Below, one piece after another: positions 3,729-63,920 of a DNA stretch of 64,000 nt. The DNA is taken from contig NZ_CP094656.1 in assembly GCF_030643805.1 (NCBI RefSeq), forward strand, positions 2,046,001-2,110,000, given 5' to 3'. A program made the position numbers and the translations under genes. The notes beneath the pieces are model-generated. The model was given only the letters and a program-made list of their open reading frames with translations, did not search any database and was not told the DNA's origin. The DNA comes from Alkalihalobacillus sp. AL-G. GTDB lineage: Bacteria > Bacillota > Bacilli > Bacillales > Fictibacillaceae. How positions within the stretch are numbered: the stretch's first letter is position 1; the number at the start of each line of letters is the position of its first letter.

Positions 3729-3934
3729 AGTCAAAAAGGCATTCGAATGATAAACGGGGAATTTCTTTGTTACTCGGTTTATCCGGTCCTCACGTATTAA
3801 CACCATACGCTCCGGTCCTTAAAACGGTCGTGCCTTGGGCTCACACGATGTGAGTCAGTTCGATGTTGTTACAGGACGTAACGTATTTAGTCGAACTTCT
3901 TTTAAGAAAATCTGATTCGTCTGTTTTTTGAACA
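3729..3934. repeat. Family A MITE-like repeat, copy 1 (near full length)
   Basis: A non-coding element with a left terminus GTCAAAAAGG and a right terminus TTTTTTGAAC. It contains two blocks shared with other copies: a left block (AAACGG..ATTTCTT..TACTCGG..TCCGGTCCTCACGTATTA) and a right block (CACACGATGTGA.TCAGTTCGA..GTTGTTA.AGGACGTAACGTATTTAGTCGAACTTC). It has no transposase. A left-end fragment of another copy follows at about 3945-3975. Confidence 0.8.
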
Positions 3935-42522: not shown

Positions 42523-42589
42523 GAAGAATATAAAAAATATAATTAATATGAGCATTTATAAAACGAGATCAACACAAAGAACGAACAAA

Positions 42590-42632: not shown

Positions 42633-42648
42633 GTTCGTTGGAAAGAAC
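42633..42648. promoter_or_regulatory. SinR-like operator 1
   Basis: GTTCGTTGGAAAGAAC, a 16-bp inverted repeat of GTTCKTT half-sites. B. subtilis SinR recognises GTTCTYT-type half-sites. Confidence 0.65.
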
Positions 42649-42786: not shown

Positions 42787-42802
42787 GTTCGTTAAAAAGA
42801 AC
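42787..42802. promoter_or_regulatory. SinR-like operator 3
   Basis: GTTCGTTAAAAAGAAC, 79 bp after operator 2 and 80 bp before tapA. Another half-site GAAC is at 42811. A TATACT element at 42767-42772 could be the -10, which the operators would bracket. Confidence 0.65.
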
Positions 42803-42881
42803 GATACATAGAACACAAACGTACGATCACAAAATGTCACATCCAGAAAGGGTGAGTCCAATAAGAAAAGGACGGTTGACT

Positions 42882-43766
42882 ATGAAACGAAAACGACGAA
42901 TAAAGTTGTTCACTAATTTAAAAGGGATTTTGTCATTATATCTAATCTTAGTGACAATCGTCTATCTATCTTCACCAACTATTGCAAGATTTAATGATGT
43001 GGAAAATTTAAAACACCACTTAGGTGTAGCAAATGAATTTCCAGTCGTTTGGGATAAAAGTTCACTACAGTTTATTGGATCAGGAGGAGATTGCAGAGAG
43101 ATTTTTGCAAACGTAAAAAATGGTAATGGCTCTGGTGCAATGGATGGACCGGTTAAATATGAAGTTTATTGGATAGAAACTGGAAATGCAAAGAATGGTA
43201 CATTGGTTGATTGGGGTTGGATTGATCCACTAGGAGCAGGTGAAGAAATAAAACTTACTTTTACCCCTGAACTATCAGGTAACTACAAGTTCAAAGCATT
43301 CCAGCGGGATGGTCATCCAGGAGAAGGAGTCCTTTGGAGTAATGGACCAGAAGGGATAGTTTGTGAAATAACTAACAGCAATGAGGAAATTACAAATTTA
43401 GATGACAATAACAATGAAAAAATAGAGGACAAAAAAAGTCCTGAAATAGCACCTGATGAGAATACGGACCAACAAAGTAATGAGAATGTACAACAGGAAT
43501 CGTCTGATACAGATGCTGAAGAAGAAGGTTCGACTGAGACCAATAGTGATCAAGCTTCAACCACTGAAGAAACTAACAACGGAAGTAGCACTTCGGAAGA
43601 GTCAGACACAACTGAATCTAACGAACCGAGTAATGATACAAATGAAACAAATCAACCAAAAACTAGTAAGGGTCAAGATAACACTACTACAAGTACACAA
43701 CAAAGTGGCGATAAATTGAGCAGTGAAAAATCAAATACTACACAAACTGGTGGTGACTTAAATTGA
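42882..43766 (+). CDS. tapA: Amyloid fibre anchoring/assembly protein TapA
   Basis: 294 residues from ATG 42882 (AAAGGACGG upstream); ATG 42834 in frame has no site. N-terminal signal segment (about 8-30), then a globular region with two Cys (GGDCREIF and GIVCEI) containing the TapA/YqxM pattern. From about residue 170 a low-complexity tail rich in Ser, Thr, Glu and Asn follows. TapA nucleates or anchors TasA fibres in the biofilm matrix. First gene of tapA-sipW-tasA. It overlaps sipW by 4 bp. Confidence 0.88.
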   Translation: MKRKRRIKLFTNLKGILSLYLILVTIVYLSSPTIARFNDVENLKHHLGVANEFPVVWDKSSLQFIGSGGDCREIFANVKNGNGSGAMDGPVKYEVYWIETGNAKNGTLVDWGWIDPLGAGEEIKLTFTPELSGNYKFKAFQRDGHPGEGVLWSNGPEGIVCEITNSNEEITNLDDNNNEKIEDKKSPEIAPDENTDQQSNENVQQESSDTDAEEEGSTETNSDQASTTEETNNGSSTSEESDTTESNEPSNDTNETNQPKTSKGQDNTTTSTQQSGDKLSSEKSNTTQTGGDLN

Positions 43767-44335
43767 AAGTTAAAGTAATGAAAATTATTAGCAGCTTAAC
43801 AACTGTGCTTTTGTTTCTAACCTTTGTGCTTATGGCTTTTGTAGTCATATCTTCTAAGGCTTCAGGAGGAGAACCGAACTTTTTCGGCTACCAGTTAAAA
43901 ACTGTATTATCCGGATCAATGGAACCGACTTTTTCTACTGGCTCTATCATAGCAGTTAAACCAATCAATAATATTTCAACAATTAATAAAGGCGATGTCA
44001 TCACTTTTATGAAAGACCAAACAAACATTGTAACCCATAGAATTATAGATGTTAGGGGTTCCAATCAATCATTACAGTACATTACTAAAGGCGATAATAA
44101 CGAAGATCCTGATAATGAACCTGTACTGGCAGATAATGTGATTGGGGAATACACGGGTTTTACAATTCCTTTTTTAGGATACTTGATGAACTTCGCAAAT
44201 TCAAAAATTGGTAGTGCATTATTACTGATTGTTCCTGGAATTGTACTGCTAATATACTCTGGACTCTCGATTTGGAGAGCTTTAAGAGAGATTGATGATA
44301 CAAAGGGGAAACAGTCGACTGAAGTAAATAGTTGA
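43763..44335 (+). CDS. sipW: Signal peptidase I, ER type (SipW)
   Basis: 190 residues from TTG 43763, overlapping the tapA stop. Membrane segments at both ends. The Ser-His dyad of the archaeal/ER type is seen in SGSMEPTF (Ser about 52) and VTHRII (His about 92), with no catalytic Lys. SipW processes TapA and TasA and is needed for matrix assembly. Confidence 0.94.
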   Translation: MKVKVMKIISSLTTVLLFLTFVLMAFVVISSKASGGEPNFFGYQLKTVLSGSMEPTFSTGSIIAVKPINNISTINKGDVITFMKDQTNIVTHRIIDVRGSNQSLQYITKGDNNEDPDNEPVLADNVIGEYTGFTIPFLGYLMNFANSKIGSALLLIVPGIVLLIYSGLSIWRALREIDDTKGKQSTEVNS

Positions 44336-44368
44336 ATCTCTGCATAGTAACCCGCTATGCAGATTCAA
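44332..44368 (+). promoter_or_regulatory. Hairpin between sipW and tasA
   Basis: TTGAATC..TGCATAG (44332-44347) pairs with CTATGCA.GATTCAA (44355-44368) with a short bulge and no T-run. It could be an attenuator or a stabilising 5' structure that lets tasA mRNA accumulate above tapA-sipW. Confidence 0.55.
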
Positions 44369-44415
44369 AATAAAAATTTTACATACCCAAAAGGGTAAGA
44401 AAGAGGAGGAACAAA

Positions 44416-45201
44416 ATGAGTATTAAAAAGAAATTAGGTTTGGGCGTAGCAACAGCGGCATTAGGATTGTCACTAGTGGGTGGAGGAACATGGGCAGCAT
44501 TCAATGATGTAGAAAACCTTGAAAACTCGTTCGCTGCAGGAACATTGGATCTTGATCTTGCAAAGGAACCAGATTTTGATACGACCTTTAATCTTAGCAA
44601 CCTTAAACCAGGAGACAGCATGACTCGTCAGTTTAGGTTAAATAACACAGGTTCACTTGCTATTAAAGAAGTATGGTTAGATATGATCCAATCAGGTTTT
44701 ACAAATGGTACCAATGAATTCGTGGGTGATCATAAACAACCAGATAATAATGCACTACAGTTTTTAGACCAGTTTAAAGTAGAAATTCTTCGAACAGGCG
44801 TTGAAGCAGGTAGTCCTGGAGATCATTATATTATCAATGGAACTGAGGGCATTACATTAAAAGATATCGTTACTGGATCCTTTACTAAATCTGGAGTTAC
44901 TGATACTGCTGGTCGTATTAACCTTGCACCAACAAATTCTACACAACCAGAATATACTGGAATCCCAGCTAACCCAACTGATTATGAAATCGTAGAAATT
45001 AAATTATCATTCATCGATGACCCTGCAAAAGTCCTTGATAAGTCATCTGCAGCATATGGCGAGTTTAAGCAAAACAAATACCAAGGCGATTCTATCAATC
45101 TTACATTCCAGATGGAAGCGACTCAATGGCAAGGAGTTCACTCTACTAGCGGAGACTACACTAAAGAAGAAAACAGAACCGCGGATCCTCAAGATCAGTA
45201 A
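44416..45201 (+). CDS. tasA: TasA/CalY-family matrix fibre protein
   Basis: 261 residues from ATG 44416 behind GAGGAGG. Signal peptide of the SipW type ending near GGGTWAAFND, then the camelysin/TasA domain (LDLDLAKEPDF..FNLSNLKPGDSMTRQFRLNNTGSL). TasA forms the main protein fibres of Bacillus biofilms. Expected to be under SinR control through the tapA promoter. Confidence 0.94.
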   Translation: MSIKKKLGLGVATAALGLSLVGGGTWAAFNDVENLENSFAAGTLDLDLAKEPDFDTTFNLSNLKPGDSMTRQFRLNNTGSLAIKEVWLDMIQSGFTNGTNEFVGDHKQPDNNALQFLDQFKVEILRTGVEAGSPGDHYIINGTEGITLKDIVTGSFTKSGVTDTAGRINLAPTNSTQPEYTGIPANPTDYEIVEIKLSFIDDPAKVLDKSSAAYGEFKQNKYQGDSINLTFQMEATQWQGVHSTSGDYTKEENRTADPQDQ

Positions 45202-45287: not shown

Positions 45288-45926
45288 ATGAAACTAAAGA
45301 AAATGTGGATTGTTCTTTATAGTTTACTAGCTCTAACACTAGTTATCTTTTCTCCTATTGGCAGTACTGGAGCGGATGAAAGCTCACCAGTAATAGATAT
45401 TGCTGCTTCTCCCTCTGGAGTATTATTTGATGTCAGTAACATTAAACCTGGTGATGTGATGAACCGAAAGGTGTCCATCCAAAACAAAGGAAATAAAGAT
45501 TTTACTTATACGACAAAAGCTGATTTCAAATCAGGCTCTGACCTTCTGTACAATCAACTTGAACTCCATATCCAGGATGAAAATGGATCTTTATATGATG
45601 GTAAACTTAGTGAGTTCAAAGGGTTTGATCCTAGGTCTCTTGCTCAAAAGACACAAGAAGATATAACATTCTCTGTTGAGTTTCCATGGGAATCAGGGAA
45701 TGAGTTTCAAGGTCTTGCAACCAAATTCACGATTGAGTTTAGTGCTGAAGGAGTTATTCCCCCTGGTAATGGTGAACCTCCAACTAATGATGGAGATCTT
45801 CCAAAGACCGGCGAATCAAATCCTGTCTGGTACTATCTATCAGGAATAATGTTAGCGGGACTTGGCCTAGGAGTACTTCGAAAGAGTCTAAAAGGTGATC
45901 GACCTAGTATTCGGATAAAAAGGTAG
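45288..45926 (+). CDS. TasA-like protein with LPKTG wall anchor
   Basis: 212 residues from ATG 45288. Signal peptide, then a TasA/camelysin-like region (GVLFDVSNIKPGDVMNRKVSIQNKGNKDF), a Pro/Gly/Asn linker, LPKTG at 171-175, a membrane segment and a basic tail. This is a classic sortase substrate. Directly followed by a sortase gene (6-bp gap), so the pair should covalently attach a TasA-like subunit to peptidoglycan. Whether it joins TasA fibres is inference. Confidence 0.9.
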   Translation: MKLKKMWIVLYSLLALTLVIFSPIGSTGADESSPVIDIAASPSGVLFDVSNIKPGDVMNRKVSIQNKGNKDFTYTTKADFKSGSDLLYNQLELHIQDENGSLYDGKLSEFKGFDPRSLAQKTQEDITFSVEFPWESGNEFQGLATKFTIEFSAEGVIPPGNGEPPTNDGDLPKTGESNPVWYYLSGIMLAGLGLGVLRKSLKGDRPSIRIKR

Positions 45927-45932
45927 ATTCTG

Positions 45933-46541
45933 ATGAGAATATTACTAGCATTAGTCATCATATTCATTGGTATAGGTGTTGCGTCTTTTCCTTATTTGAA
46001 AGCTCAATATAGTCTTCACCAACAAGATCAGTTACTGGAGCAGTGGAAAAATACAAATTCGGATAAGGCAAAACAAAGTTATACATCTCTTACAAAGGTA
46101 TTCGCTTCTGATGATAGTAAAGAACAGGCTCCTTCAACAGGAGAGCTTTTAGGGTCAATTAAGATACCAGAGATTGATCTTGAAATGCCGATTCTTGAGG
46201 GAGCTACAATAGAAAATATGAAAAAGGCAGCAGGACATCTTGAAGGAACGGCACCACTTGGAGAAGAGGGTAATGCTGCAATCGCAGCCCATCGTAGCTA
46301 TACATATGGAAAAGATTTTAATCGACTTGATGAAATAGACGTAGGTGATGAAATAAGCATAACAACAAATGTTGCAACATATACCTATACTGTCTTCAAT
46401 ACGATGATCGTACTTCCTGATGACACGTCAGTCCTTAAATCTAGTCCCGATAAAAGTATCATGACGCTAATTACTTGTGAGCCGATTAAAGACCCTACCC
46501 ATCGTCTTATTGTCCAAGCCAGCTTGAAAAAATCTAAATAG
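45933..46541 (+). CDS. Class D sortase
   Basis: 202 residues from ATG 45933. N-terminal membrane anchor, then the sortase barrel with catalytic His about 119 (AAHRSY), Cys about 181 (LITCEP) and Arg in HRLIV. Short linker features and the TLITCEPIKDPTHR motif point to class D. Its likely substrate is the LPKTG protein encoded immediately upstream. Confidence 0.93.
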   Translation: MRILLALVIIFIGIGVASFPYLKAQYSLHQQDQLLEQWKNTNSDKAKQSYTSLTKVFASDDSKEQAPSTGELLGSIKIPEIDLEMPILEGATIENMKKAAGHLEGTAPLGEEGNAAIAAHRSYTYGKDFNRLDEIDVGDEISITTNVATYTYTVFNTMIVLPDDTSVLKSSPDKSIMTLITCEPIKDPTHRLIVQASLKKSK

Positions 46542-46805: not shown

Positions 46806-46845
46806 AGATTAATATTTCTTTTTCCAAGTGAAAGGGGAAGGAACG

Positions 46846-47151
46846 GTGAATTTAGGAGATATGATTCGACAATTAAGGATGCAGCAAAGATTGTCCATTA
46901 TAGAATTAGCAAAACGAACCCATGTATCAGAAGCATACATCTTAAATATAGAGTCTGGTAAAATAACGAATCCATCTTTTTTTAACATGTTGAAAATTGC
47001 ACGGGAACTGAATCTGGATGTTTACGAGTTAGAAGATTTATATATCGATCCTGATTGGATATCACTCATGGAAGAGGCTCGGGGAATAGGGTTATCTTCT
47101 ATAGAAGTCCGGCAATTCCTTCAGGCACATATGGCAGAATTAACAAAATAA
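46846..47151 (+). CDS. SlrR/SinR-like regulator
   Basis: 101 residues from GTG 46846 behind AAGGGGAAGG. An N-terminal Xre helix-turn-helix (IRQLRMQQRLSIIELAKRTHVSEAYILNIE) is followed by a SinI/SinR-type dimerisation helix pair (DPDWISLMEEARGIGLSSIEVRQFL). The latter resembles SinI as much as SinR, so it could both bind DNA and titrate SinR, as SlrR does. It is convergent with sinR and downstream of the sortase genes. Confidence 0.82.
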   Translation: MNLGDMIRQLRMQQRLSIIELAKRTHVSEAYILNIESGKITNPSFFNMLKIARELNLDVYELEDLYIDPDWISLMEEARGIGLSSIEVRQFLQAHMAELTK

Positions 47152-47195
47152 AAAGCACCGCGAACAGAGAACTGTTGGCAGTGCTTTAATTATTT
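47151..47195. terminator. Bidirectional terminator between the SlrR-like gene and sinR
   Basis: AAAGCAC (47151-47157) pairs with GTGCTTT (47180-47186), with an inner AACAG/CTGTT stem. Confidence 0.75.
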
Positions 47196-47518
47196 TCTTG
47201 TTCTTTCTTCCATTTATTATATTCCAGAAAGTTTTTGAATTCATCCTTGGACACACCAGACTGCATCGCTTCTTGAACCAGATCAAGCCAATCCTCATCG
47301 AGATCATCCGCCTCACTATCAACCAAGTCATGCAAGAGGTTATCTACGGATATATCTAAAACGTTCGATACTTTTTCTAAAAACTGAATTGAGGGGTTTG
47401 ATTGTAAGTTTCGTTCAATCGAACTTAAGTAGGACTTAGCGACTCCAGCTCGATCCGCAAGCTCTGATAGAGAAATTCCTTTTTCTTTTCTGTAGTGTTT
47501 AAGACGTTCCCCAATCAT
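47186..47518 (-). CDS. sinR: Master biofilm repressor SinR
   Basis: 110 residues from ATG 47516-47518, six bases after AAGGAG. The Xre HTH (MIGERLKHYRKEKGISLSELAD..GVAKSYLSSIERNLQSNPSI) matches SinR closely, and the C-terminal DEDWLDLVQEAMQSGVSKDEFKNFLEY is the dimerisation/SinI-binding domain. SinR represses matrix operons. It follows sinI on the same strand and also has its own promoter. Confidence 0.95.
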   Translation of the reverse strand: MIGERLKHYRKEKGISLSELADRAGVAKSYLSSIERNLQSNPSIQFLEKVSNVLDISVDNLLHDLVDSEADDLDEDWLDLVQEAMQSGVSKDEFKNFLEYNKWKKEQENN

Positions 47519-47559: not shown

Positions 47560-47568
47560 ATTATACCA
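47560..47568 (-). promoter_or_regulatory. Extended -10 promoter for sinR
   Basis: TGGTATAAT on the minus strand, about 42 bp upstream of the sinR start and between sinI and sinR. The -35 is poor. It would give constitutive SinR independent of the sinI promoter, as in B. subtilis. Confidence 0.6.
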
Positions 47569-47602
47569 TAAAAATTCTGAAAATAGGCTATGTAATGATG
47601 AA

Positions 47603-47749
47603 TTACACCTTTGGTTGTATAGCTTTTAGACTGAACTTTTGCTGGAAAAATGCTCTTACTTCAGTTTTCGTCATACCAGCCTGTTTTGCGACCTTCATAA
47701 GTTCGACCCATTCGTGATCTAACTTCACTTGTTTGAACTGTTTTTCCAT
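47603..47749 (-). CDS. sinI: SinR antagonist SinI
   Basis: 48 residues from ATG 47747-47749, preceded by AGGGGG about 6-9 bases upstream. The frame is open further upstream, but that part is riboswitch sequence. The core LDHEWVELMKVAKQAGMTKTEVRAFF matches the SinI helices that replace one SinR in the dimer. SinI therefore derepresses tapA-sipW-tasA. Its leader contains a cyclic-di-GMP aptamer. Confidence 0.93.
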   Translation of the reverse strand: MEKQFKQVKLDHEWVELMKVAKQAGMTKTEVRAFFQQKFSLKAIQPKV

Positions 47750-47787
47750 ACCAACGATTCCCCCTAAAAGTATCATGCCTCTTGGTA
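47749..47787 (-). promoter_or_regulatory. Predicted expression platform of the sinI riboswitch
   Basis: TACCAA (47782-47787, part of the aptamer P1 3' strand) can pair with TTGGTA (47749-47754), which runs into the sinI ATG and traps the AGGGGG site in the loop. Ligand-stabilised P1 would free the start. There is no T-run, so control should be translational and switched ON by ligand. Folding inferred by eye. Confidence 0.65.
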
Positions 47788-47868
47788 GCCCAGCCGTCCT
47801 AGTACAAAGACCGTAGATCTGTGACTTTGCGTCCCCGCCTTTCAACGAGTTTGCCTTTTACAAAAGGG
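47778..47868 (-). promoter_or_regulatory. Cyclic-di-GMP-I (GEMM-I) riboswitch upstream of sinI
   Basis: On the minus strand: GGCAAAC, then a helix CTCGTT/GGCGGG closed by a GAAA tetraloop, GGACGCAAAG, then the second arm ending CGGCTGGGCTACC. These are the invariant parts of GEMM-I. P1 is formed by CCCTTTTGTA (about 47859-47868) and TACCAAGAGG (47778-47787). The guanine at the position that reads the second ligand base is kept, so c-di-GMP rather than cGAMP. The sinI start lies 28 nt downstream. Confidence 0.93.
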
Positions 47869-48007
47869 GTTACCCCATCACCACATTATCAATTTTAGTA
47901 CTATCATCCTTAAATGTTTGTAAAATTGTGAAAAAAATTAGTTCTATTTTTGTCTAAATCTAGGTTAACCACGACTAAGTTCCTGTATATATGGAAAAAT
48001 AATCAAC

Positions 48008-48036
48008 TTTACAAACCGCACAAACCTCGATATAAT
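48008..48036 (+). promoter_or_regulatory. Sigma-A promoter of the 6S-like RNA
   Basis: TTTACA (48008-48013), 17-bp spacer, TATAAT (48031-48036). Transcription would start at about 48042, at the 5' end of the predicted terminal helix. Confidence 0.85.
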
Positions 48037-48041
48037 AAAAT

Positions 48042-48219
48042 TCCTGCATTGTTAGTGACACGTTTATGTCTTAAACCGATGACATGACAAAGGGAACCTT
48101 AAATTTCAGTCTAGACGTCAAGCCGCTCATTCGGATTGCGGAAGACGAACGGATTGATGCGGGTACCCACCTGCTAATGTGGGTTTATGAGTCATGAAGT
48201 GTCACGGCAAGTGCGGGAT
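48042..48219 (+). ncRNA. ssrS: Probable 6S RNA
   Basis: An approximately 178-nt RNA with no reading frame. Its ends pair in a long helix: TCCTGCATT (48042-48050) and GTGACAC (48055-48061) with GTGTCAC (48199-48205) and AAGTGCGGGA (48209-48218). Inside, AAACC pairs with GGTTT, then comes a large open region and an arm with CCGC/GCGG. A small ACCCAC/GTGGGT hairpin lies on the 3' side. A rod with closed terminal helix, central bubble and small 3' hairpin is the 6S RNA plan. 6S RNA binds sigma-A RNA polymerase. The identity is by fold and size, not by homology search. Confidence 0.65.
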
Positions 48220-48236
48220 ACATATAGGTTTTACTT

Positions 48237-55828: not shown

Positions 55829-55943
55829 GTTCAAAAACTCCGGAGGCTCACAAGATGTGAATCAGTTCAACGTTGTCACAGGGCGTGTGACGTAGTTAAT
55901 TGAACTTCAGAAATTGCGGCTCTTTTTATCCTACTTTTTGAAC
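55829..55943. repeat. Family A repeat, copy 4 (right block only)
   Basis: GTTCAAAAAC at the left and TTTTTGAAC at the right, preceded by AGAGGTT. Contains GGCTCACA.GATGTGAATCAGTTCAACGTTGT.ACAGGGCGTG..GTAGTTAATTGAACTTC, the right block, but not the left block. Lies between fhs and pncA. Confidence 0.8.
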
Positions 55944-63528: not shown

Positions 63529-63920
63529 GTTCAAAAAGTATCCAACTGATAAACGGTGAATTTCTACGATACTCGGTTTTCCGGTCCTCACGTATTATAA
63601 GGAAGTATTGATTTCATCGAAGTACATTCATTGTGCACCTGCGTCTAACTAGGTTGTTAACGTGTACCTGCGTCTACAAGCTTATCCTAGGATGGAGGCT
63701 TCCTCGGTACAACTCGTAGCTTATATGCAAGTTGTCTCTCGTCGCTATCGATGGAAGCTTCCTCGGTGCAAGGCAGCAAAGATGCGTTCAAGTGAGAGCC
63801 TTCCTCAAAACTGTTGTGCCTGGGGTTCACACGATGTGAATCAGTTCGACGTTGTTATAGGACGTAACGTATTTAGTCGCACTTCTTTTAAGGAATTTCT
63901 GAGTCGTCTACGTTTTGAAC
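63529..63920. repeat. Family A repeat, copy 6, interrupted by family B
   Basis: AGAGGTTGTTCAAAAAG at the left and CGTTTTGAAC at the right. The left block runs to ACGTATTA (about 63597); the right block resumes at TCCTCAAAACTGTTGTGCC (about 63802) and includes CACACGATGTGAATCAGTTCGACGTTG and TAACGTATTTAGTCGCACTTC. About 200 bp of other sequence, mainly family B, lies between. It ends 30 bp before brxA. Confidence 0.82.
63630..63775 (-). repeat. Family B repeat, copy 2, inserted in family A
   Basis: Inverted relative to the copy at 52768-52884. Read on the minus strand it has TGTACCGAGGAAGCC..CATCCTAGGATAAGCTTGTAGACGCAGGTACAC and GACGCAGGTGCAC. A partial extra CACCGAGGAAGCTTCCATCG unit extends it to about 63775. 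Confidence 0.78.

Follow-up and report, generated by a model that had tools for sequence, protein, structure and literature searches.

The gene for the anti-repressor SinI in a 64,000-nucleotide (nt) stretch of the Alkalihalobacillus sp. AL-G genome (positions 2,046,001 to 2,110,000 of contig NZ_CP094656.1; the whole of this stretch is called the window here) is preceded by a complete riboswitch aptamer of the cyclic-di-GMP-I (c-di-GMP-I, or GEMM-I) class, and the same arrangement was found in many genera of the Bacilli. In most of the sinI leaders compared, by computation, helix P1 of the aptamer and access to the Shine-Dalgarno (SD) sequence of sinI go together, in that the SD is masked by a strand of P1 when P1 is open, so that masking and P1 are mutually exclusive. 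On the strength of this modelling the leader is regarded as a translational ON riboswitch for c-di-GMP, with a probability of roughly three in four. The leader in the window is considered real, recurrent in many genera and functionally plausible; the association has been in print once before, and the surprise lies in the breadth of the arrangement and in Bacillus subtilis, the model organism, being an exception to it.

The aptamer and the gene behind it

The aptamer, the sinI gene and its neighbour sinR lie in the following order along the minus strand:

47781..47865, minus strand: c-di-GMP-I (GEMM-I) aptamer; RF01051 68.2 bits, RF03167 61.9 bits
47603..47749, minus strand: sinI, anti-repressor SinI, 48 amino acids (aa); PF08671 41.3 bits (cut-off 31.4), residues 10-36
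47186..47518, minus strand: sinR, helix-turn-helix (HTH) repressor with a SinI-type oligomerisation domain, 110 aa; PF01381 and PF08671

An earlier note on this DNA, made from the sequence alone, had read the sinI leader as a GEMM-I aptamer and had proposed an Infernal search with RF01051; that search was run and gave a full-length match from 47865 to 47781 (E 4.7e-13, model 1-87 of 87, curated cut-off 35 bits; G000:C1:2093781-2093865(-) in genome coordinates), ending 31 nt 5' of the sinI start codon. The target gene is likewise the one that had been named, as the downstream open reading frame encodes a short protein made up mainly of one SinI domain (PF08671), and sinR, directly downstream, bears a matching PF08671 domain. 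A chance match is unlikely, both because the 4.16-Mb genome holds six RF01051 matches, two of which are directly 5' of its two sinI genes, and because the arrangement recurs across genera.

The identity of the ligand was considered from the bases at positions 20, 47 and 92, the ligand-contact positions of c-di-GMP-I aptamers. The window aptamer has G, A and C at these positions, and in 52 aligned rows of sinI aptamers (one sequence appearing twice) G20 was found in 50, A47 in 52 and C92 in 51. There is the possibility that the aptamer is instead a variant with another ligand, of the c-di-GMP-I-GGC or cyclic GMP-AMP (cGAMP) type, as RF03167 (c-di-GMP-I-GGC) also scored above its cut-off of 59 bits and took the top E-value rank in the cmscan of the window. 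However, RF01051 gave more bits at the same place, the window has G20, and the RF03167 consensus has G at position 47 where the window, as all of the aligned rows, has A; this criterion for the GGC type, G for A at 47, was itself drawn from the family name. The RF03167 label was set aside for these reasons, and a ligand other than c-di-GMP is improbable. Two sinI aptamers, those of Oceanobacillus halophilus (L078) and Bacillus sp. EB600 (L089), have A at position 20, which in GEMM-I variants presumably goes with cGAMP recognition, and judged from this base their ligand may differ.

Distribution of the arrangement

The same leader was found before sinI in relatives at three levels of sampling, as the earlier note had suggested might be looked for. 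Within the genus, five of eight genomes gave a SinI-domain match and all five have an aptamer before sinI, whilst within the family such a match was found in 31 of 34 genomes and an aptamer directly 5' of a sinI in 27 of the 31; the 28 leaders read from the family are those of the 27 genomes together with that of the second sinI of the window genome. An even draw of 121 genomes from the class added 16 further genomes in which a SinI domain was matched, 11 of which (G036, G044, G046, G053, G067, G073, G086, G094, G129, G145 and G151), from nine families besides that of the window, have an aptamer 44-91 nt before a same-strand SinI-domain match. These class-wide counts are from match tables compared by eye, with the genes themselves unread, and in G044 the matched frame has 117 codons and is possibly SinR-like, its sinI lying beside sinR without an aptamer.

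A SinI protein search of named genomes yielded 45 loci, and at 38 of them an Rfam aptamer stands directly before the matched sinI; the positive genera include Thalassobacillus, Virgibacillus, Oceanobacillus, Ornithinibacillus, Aquisalibacillus, Rossellomorea, Evansella, Domibacillus, Mesobacillus and Neobacillus, and at a 39th locus (L065) the aptamer precedes a second sinI. All 19 named loci with sinR directly downstream have the aptamer, as do 19 of the remaining 26, where sinR was counted only if on the same strand and close downstream and can be missed at a short locus (L089).

The arrangement is not universal, and the exceptions count against the preferred reading of the leader given below. 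Four family genomes with SinI (G027, G028, G029 and G032) have no c-di-GMP-I match genome-wide, and the arrangement is absent from five of the 16 genomes in the class draw (G047, G069, G081, G085 and G101). A search down to weak aptamer matches (up to E 1) found none at the four negative family loci, and none before the sinI that had been matched at each of the seven named loci that are exceptions. Nor was any c-di-GMP-I match found in 14 control genomes, B. subtilis included; the sinI of B. subtilis is therefore without such a leader at this sensitivity.

Some genomes have more than one such leader. G067 (C6, C12), G053 (C5) and G151 (C12, C17) carry two or three SinI-domain genes, and a separate c-di-GMP-I aptamer stands upstream of every one of them. 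The second sinI of the window genome (G000:C1:532022-532248 (-); L015 996-1136 (-)) also has an aptamer directly upstream, with no sinR within the 2.5 kb read. Elsewhere in that genome, a c-di-GMP-I aptamer (L049, G000:C1:630054-630140 +) is upstream of a Tad-type pilus-like cluster, in which an uncharacterised open reading frame is followed by prepilin-peptidase-like and TadE-like genes, and another (L050, G000:C1:3731502-3731606 -) is upstream of a long YD-repeat protein, both descriptions coming from translations read by eye and not from a family search.

Predicted pairing of P1 with the Shine-Dalgarno region

The segments of the window leader that are involved in the predicted switch are as follows:

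47865..47869, minus strand: anti-SD CCCCU, predicted partner of SD AGGGG with P1 open (minimum-energy fold, pair probabilities)
47861..47867, minus strand: P1 5' strand CCUUUUG, with seven possible pairs to CAAGAGG and with an overlap between its 5' end and the anti-SD (computed pairing)
47778..47784, minus strand: P1 3' strand CAAGAGG (computed pairing)
47766..47770, minus strand: pre-SD CUUUU, a partial copy of the P1 5' strand, able to capture AAGAG of the P1 3' strand with P1 open (minimum-energy fold)
47760..47765, minus strand: sinI Shine-Dalgarno AGGGGG, 10 nt before the start codon (from the sequence)

Leaders were extracted in two sets (28 and 37), leaving 51 distinct ones after removal of 13 duplicates and of L054, which is the same locus as G006; L088 was left out as it has the aptamer but no ATG, GTG or TTG start was found. 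In the predicted unliganded ensemble the SD or pre-SD captures one strand of P1 in 46 of the 51, and two wirings bring this about. In the 5' wiring, which Fictibacillus uses among others, the P1 5' strand serves as the anti-SD along with a C-rich run ahead of it (UCCUUCAGA with UCUGGAGGGA). In the 3' wiring, which occurs in Mesobacillus, Neobacillus and Oceanobacillus sojae and at the second sinI of the window genome, the P1 3' strand, with the nucleotides that follow it, folds into a hairpin with the pre-SD (CCUAAAAUA with UAUUUUAGG). The window leader combines the two, CCCCU pairing with AGGGG and AAGAG with CUUUU, the 3' strand capture ranking above the 5' wiring in the ensemble prediction; this pre-SD capture is the same kind of wiring as that in relatives.

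When P1 was enforced on a fold with P2 and P3, predicted SD access rose in 44 of the 51 leaders and fell in three, the mean going from 0.26 to 0.52, and against the unconstrained ensemble it rose in 41. A cruder fold comparison of 28 leaders gave a rise in 24. For the window leader, SD access went from 0.14-0.22 when free to 0.54-0.64 with P1 across four possible transcript starts. In a control in which flanks and linkers were shuffled (48 real leaders, three with a P1 of fewer than three pairs being left out, and 576 shuffles), capture was seen in 96% of real and 52% of shuffled leaders, SD access rose with P1 in 90% and 57%, and the mean rise was 0.27 versus 0.14.

A partner-swap test was made on 28 representatives chosen by relatedness, so that 16 of the 18 leaders from the Fictibacillus clade were dropped, as were seven other close relatives. 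When the better of the two wirings was scored, none of 20000 permutations came up to the native value, and when the 3' strand wiring was scored, six of 20000 came up to the native mean; amongst these representatives SD access rose with P1 in 23 and fell in three. This supersedes an earlier swap test on 10 and 12 leaders picked partly by wiring, in which the window leader was counted as 5' wiring (P 0.086 for the 5' wiring, 0/20000 for the 3'). Duplex energies of single leaders compared with shuffles gave a weak signal (mean z about -1.5), which is accounted for by the ability of a C-rich stretch to pair with any SD.

Taken together, these predictions speak more for an ON switch at the level of translation than against it. 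Without ligand P1 would be open, CCCCU would pair with the SD AGGGG and AAGAG with the CUUUU before it, and the ribosome site would be shut; binding of c-di-GMP at the three-way junction would then close P1 (CCUUUUG with CAAGAGG), taking away both partners at once, so that the SD is freed and SinI is made. The SinI produced would bind SinR and lift its repression of the tapA-sipW-tasA matrix genes. The earlier note had also expected the ligand to turn SinI translation on, and modelling and comparison favour that direction, albeit by a different mechanism. It had proposed that TACCAA in the P1 3' strand (47787-47782) pairs with TTGGTA running into the start codon (47754-47749). The letters are there as quoted, six of them complementary, and the corresponding segments of the congener G002 (UACCC and GGGUA) are compatible with such a helix, the pairing being worth -7.0 kcal/mol in the window and -7.7 kcal/mol in G002. 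However, UACC is part of the aptamer and fixed as such, each pair of the helix has a predicted probability of only 0.013-0.022 in the absence of ligand, and lower with the two shortest starts, and in 26 of 28 leaders the pairing is weaker than -5 kcal/mol. The more widely shared wiring uses the SD or pre-SD. The helix of the earlier note was rejected as the main switch and is the least probable of the alternatives considered here.

The leader could instead act on transcription, through termination, Rho or RNA stability, and not on ribosome access. Many c-di-GMP-I riboswitches work by terminators and hairpins do exist in the linker; however, the one leader scanned for terminators, that of the window (47560 to 48060), gave no terminator-like site, the aptamers are separated from the chosen start codons by linkers of 15-35 nt, and the pairings that are predicted take in the SD, which makes an effect on transcription distinctly unlikely.

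The preferred reading, an ON switch acting on translation, should nevertheless be considered with caution as a number of results weigh against it. Transcript starts were assumed, with 25 nt upstream of the aptamer included in the folds. The three leaders in which SD access is lower under P1 are L056, L060 and L073, and six leaders fall when compared with the unconstrained ensemble. The P1 found has four pairs or fewer in 17 of the 51 leaders, and one or two in G002, G003 and L073. More than half of the shuffled leaders also gained SD access with P1, and the 5' strand:SD wiring taken alone was no better than swapped partners (2229 of 20000). In the window, the bound fold costs 8-11 kcal/mol in a secondary-structure model that ignores ligand and tertiary contacts, and the AUG is less open with P1 at two of the four starts (0.89 to 0.71 and 0.87 to 0.71), opening at the other two. 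The same three falling leaders could be taken to speak for an OFF switch, in which c-di-GMP lowers SinI and a high level of it keeps SinR active, and some c-di-GMP-I riboswitches are indeed OFF, such as the one named 'off' before mcpA in Bacillus thuringiensis (PMC7793685). Set against this are the much larger number of leaders in which SD access rises, both in the full set and in the representatives, and the report that overproduction of CdgF raises sinI in B. thuringiensis, not necessarily through a leader (PMC7793685). An OFF switch is thus unlikely, if the least so of the alternatives.

Regulatory setting and comparison with known systems

Further features of the window that bear on the regulation of sinI, or lie around it, are:

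47885..47890, minus strand: -10-like GATAAT, candidate sinI promoter element, found by eye beside relatives and uncalled by the promoter scan
47951..47957, minus strand: Spo0A-box-like TTAGACA, pattern scan, one mismatch
42576-42582, 42642-42648 and 42796-42802, minus strand: three SinR-box matches GTTCTTT, pattern search, upstream of putative tapA
42834..45201, plus strand: putative tapA-sipW-tasA operon (42834-43766, 43763-44335, 44416-45201), profile search and position
45288..46541, plus strand: two genes after tasA, for a second, weaker camelysin-like protein with LPKTG near its end and for a sortase
46828..47151, plus strand: further SinR-like gene
48038..48223, plus strand: 6S RNA gene, in divergent orientation to the sinI leader
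3840-3906, 55847-55915 and 63826-63892, all minus strand: Bacillaceae-1 RNA (RF01690), three copies within 64 kb

The only minus-strand site called by the promoter scan was 47932-47903 (TTCACA/GATGAT), which is at chance level (two found in all, 1.5 expected). The Spo0A-box-like site upstream suggests that sinI may also be part of an AND gate, with Spo0A~P required for transcription and c-di-GMP for translation. Taking TTCGACA / TGTCGAA to be the core of the Spo0A box, perfect cores occur up to 150 nt upstream of the aptamer in nine of 38 leaders scanned, as a raw count without shuffles; G002 and G003 are among the nine, with a perfect TTCGACA at distances of 92 and 94 nt, about where the site of the window stands. 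Less favourable to an AND gate are the mismatch in the window's own site and the three Fictibacillus leaders scanned (G010, G012 and G018), in which no good Spo0A box was found in place; evidence for Spo0A control is therefore limited to some genera.

On the output side, the putative tapA-sipW-tasA operon is a likely SinR target. Three SinR boxes (consensus GTTCTYT, from PMC3163267) lie within 260 nt before putative tapA, with a Poisson P of about 2e-4 that is uncorrected for the choice of that place, and the window as a whole has 26 such boxes where 26.3 are expected. Putative tasA belongs to the camelysin/TasA family (PF12389), putative sipW is signal-peptidase-like (PF10502, 21.2 bits, short of the cut-off at 22.9), and putative tapA has no family match and is named by position only. 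Since the LPKTG protein and a sortase follow tasA, protein anchoring may belong to this cluster as well. As for the input, the genome can probably make and break c-di-GMP, as it has five GGDEF and four EAL matches. The 6S RNA gene also adjoins sinI in L052 and L054.

That SinI/SinR is such an AND gate in many of the Bacilli that have the leader, with the wiring that masks the SD rebuilt between genera but the logic kept, and with B. subtilis as an exception lacking the c-di-GMP input, is about as likely as not. A riboswitch on sinI in many genera would connect c-di-GMP signalling directly, and in a way open to testing, with the production of matrix in bacilli.

A putative c-di-GMP riboswitch before sinI was reported in Bacillus methanolicus MGA3, where mapped 5'-untranslated regions were compared with Rfam (PMC4342826), and it is the same kind of riboswitch before the same gene as in the window. 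That account, in the excerpt cited, is a table row and half a sentence, giving no mechanism, direction or distribution, and the likeness of the two leaders is one of description. The earlier note had known of no c-di-GMP riboswitch in B. subtilis, which agrees with the lack of a match in that genome but is incomplete in passing over the B. methanolicus leader. Among the matches listed in a search of the open-licence literature, there was no other paper placing a c-di-GMP riboswitch before a bacillus sinI, and none dealing with how widespread the sinI leader is, how it is wired or in which direction it switches, subscription papers such as the original GEMM gene lists lying outside that search. 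PMC10240345 was set aside, as its 'sinI' is seemingly another gene, going by the excerpt, and further papers were put aside on the same ground from their titles and abstracts.

With RF01051 riboswitches at large the sinI leaders share the full-length match, the key contact bases, the three helices and the location in a 5' leader; they differ in that the target is the anti-repressor of a biofilm switch and in the predicted masking of the SD by strands of P1, with two wirings by genus. A parallel in a bacillus is the c-di-GMP 'on' riboswitch before cbpA in B. thuringiensis (PMC7423583, PMC7793685), which promotes a gene for surface attachment but controls the adhesin directly and not the anti-repressor of a master switch; in the same species, sinI and spo0A are reported to rise at high c-di-GMP (PMC7793685). 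The sinI-sinR system of B. subtilis (PMC3163267) has in common with that of the window SinI beside SinR, SinR boxes at the matrix operon (a putative one in the window) and possibly Spo0A control of sinI, and differs in having no c-di-GMP-I match in its genome. If sinI is under a riboswitch in many genera, then the circuit of B. subtilis, the source of the textbook account, would not be typical of its relatives.
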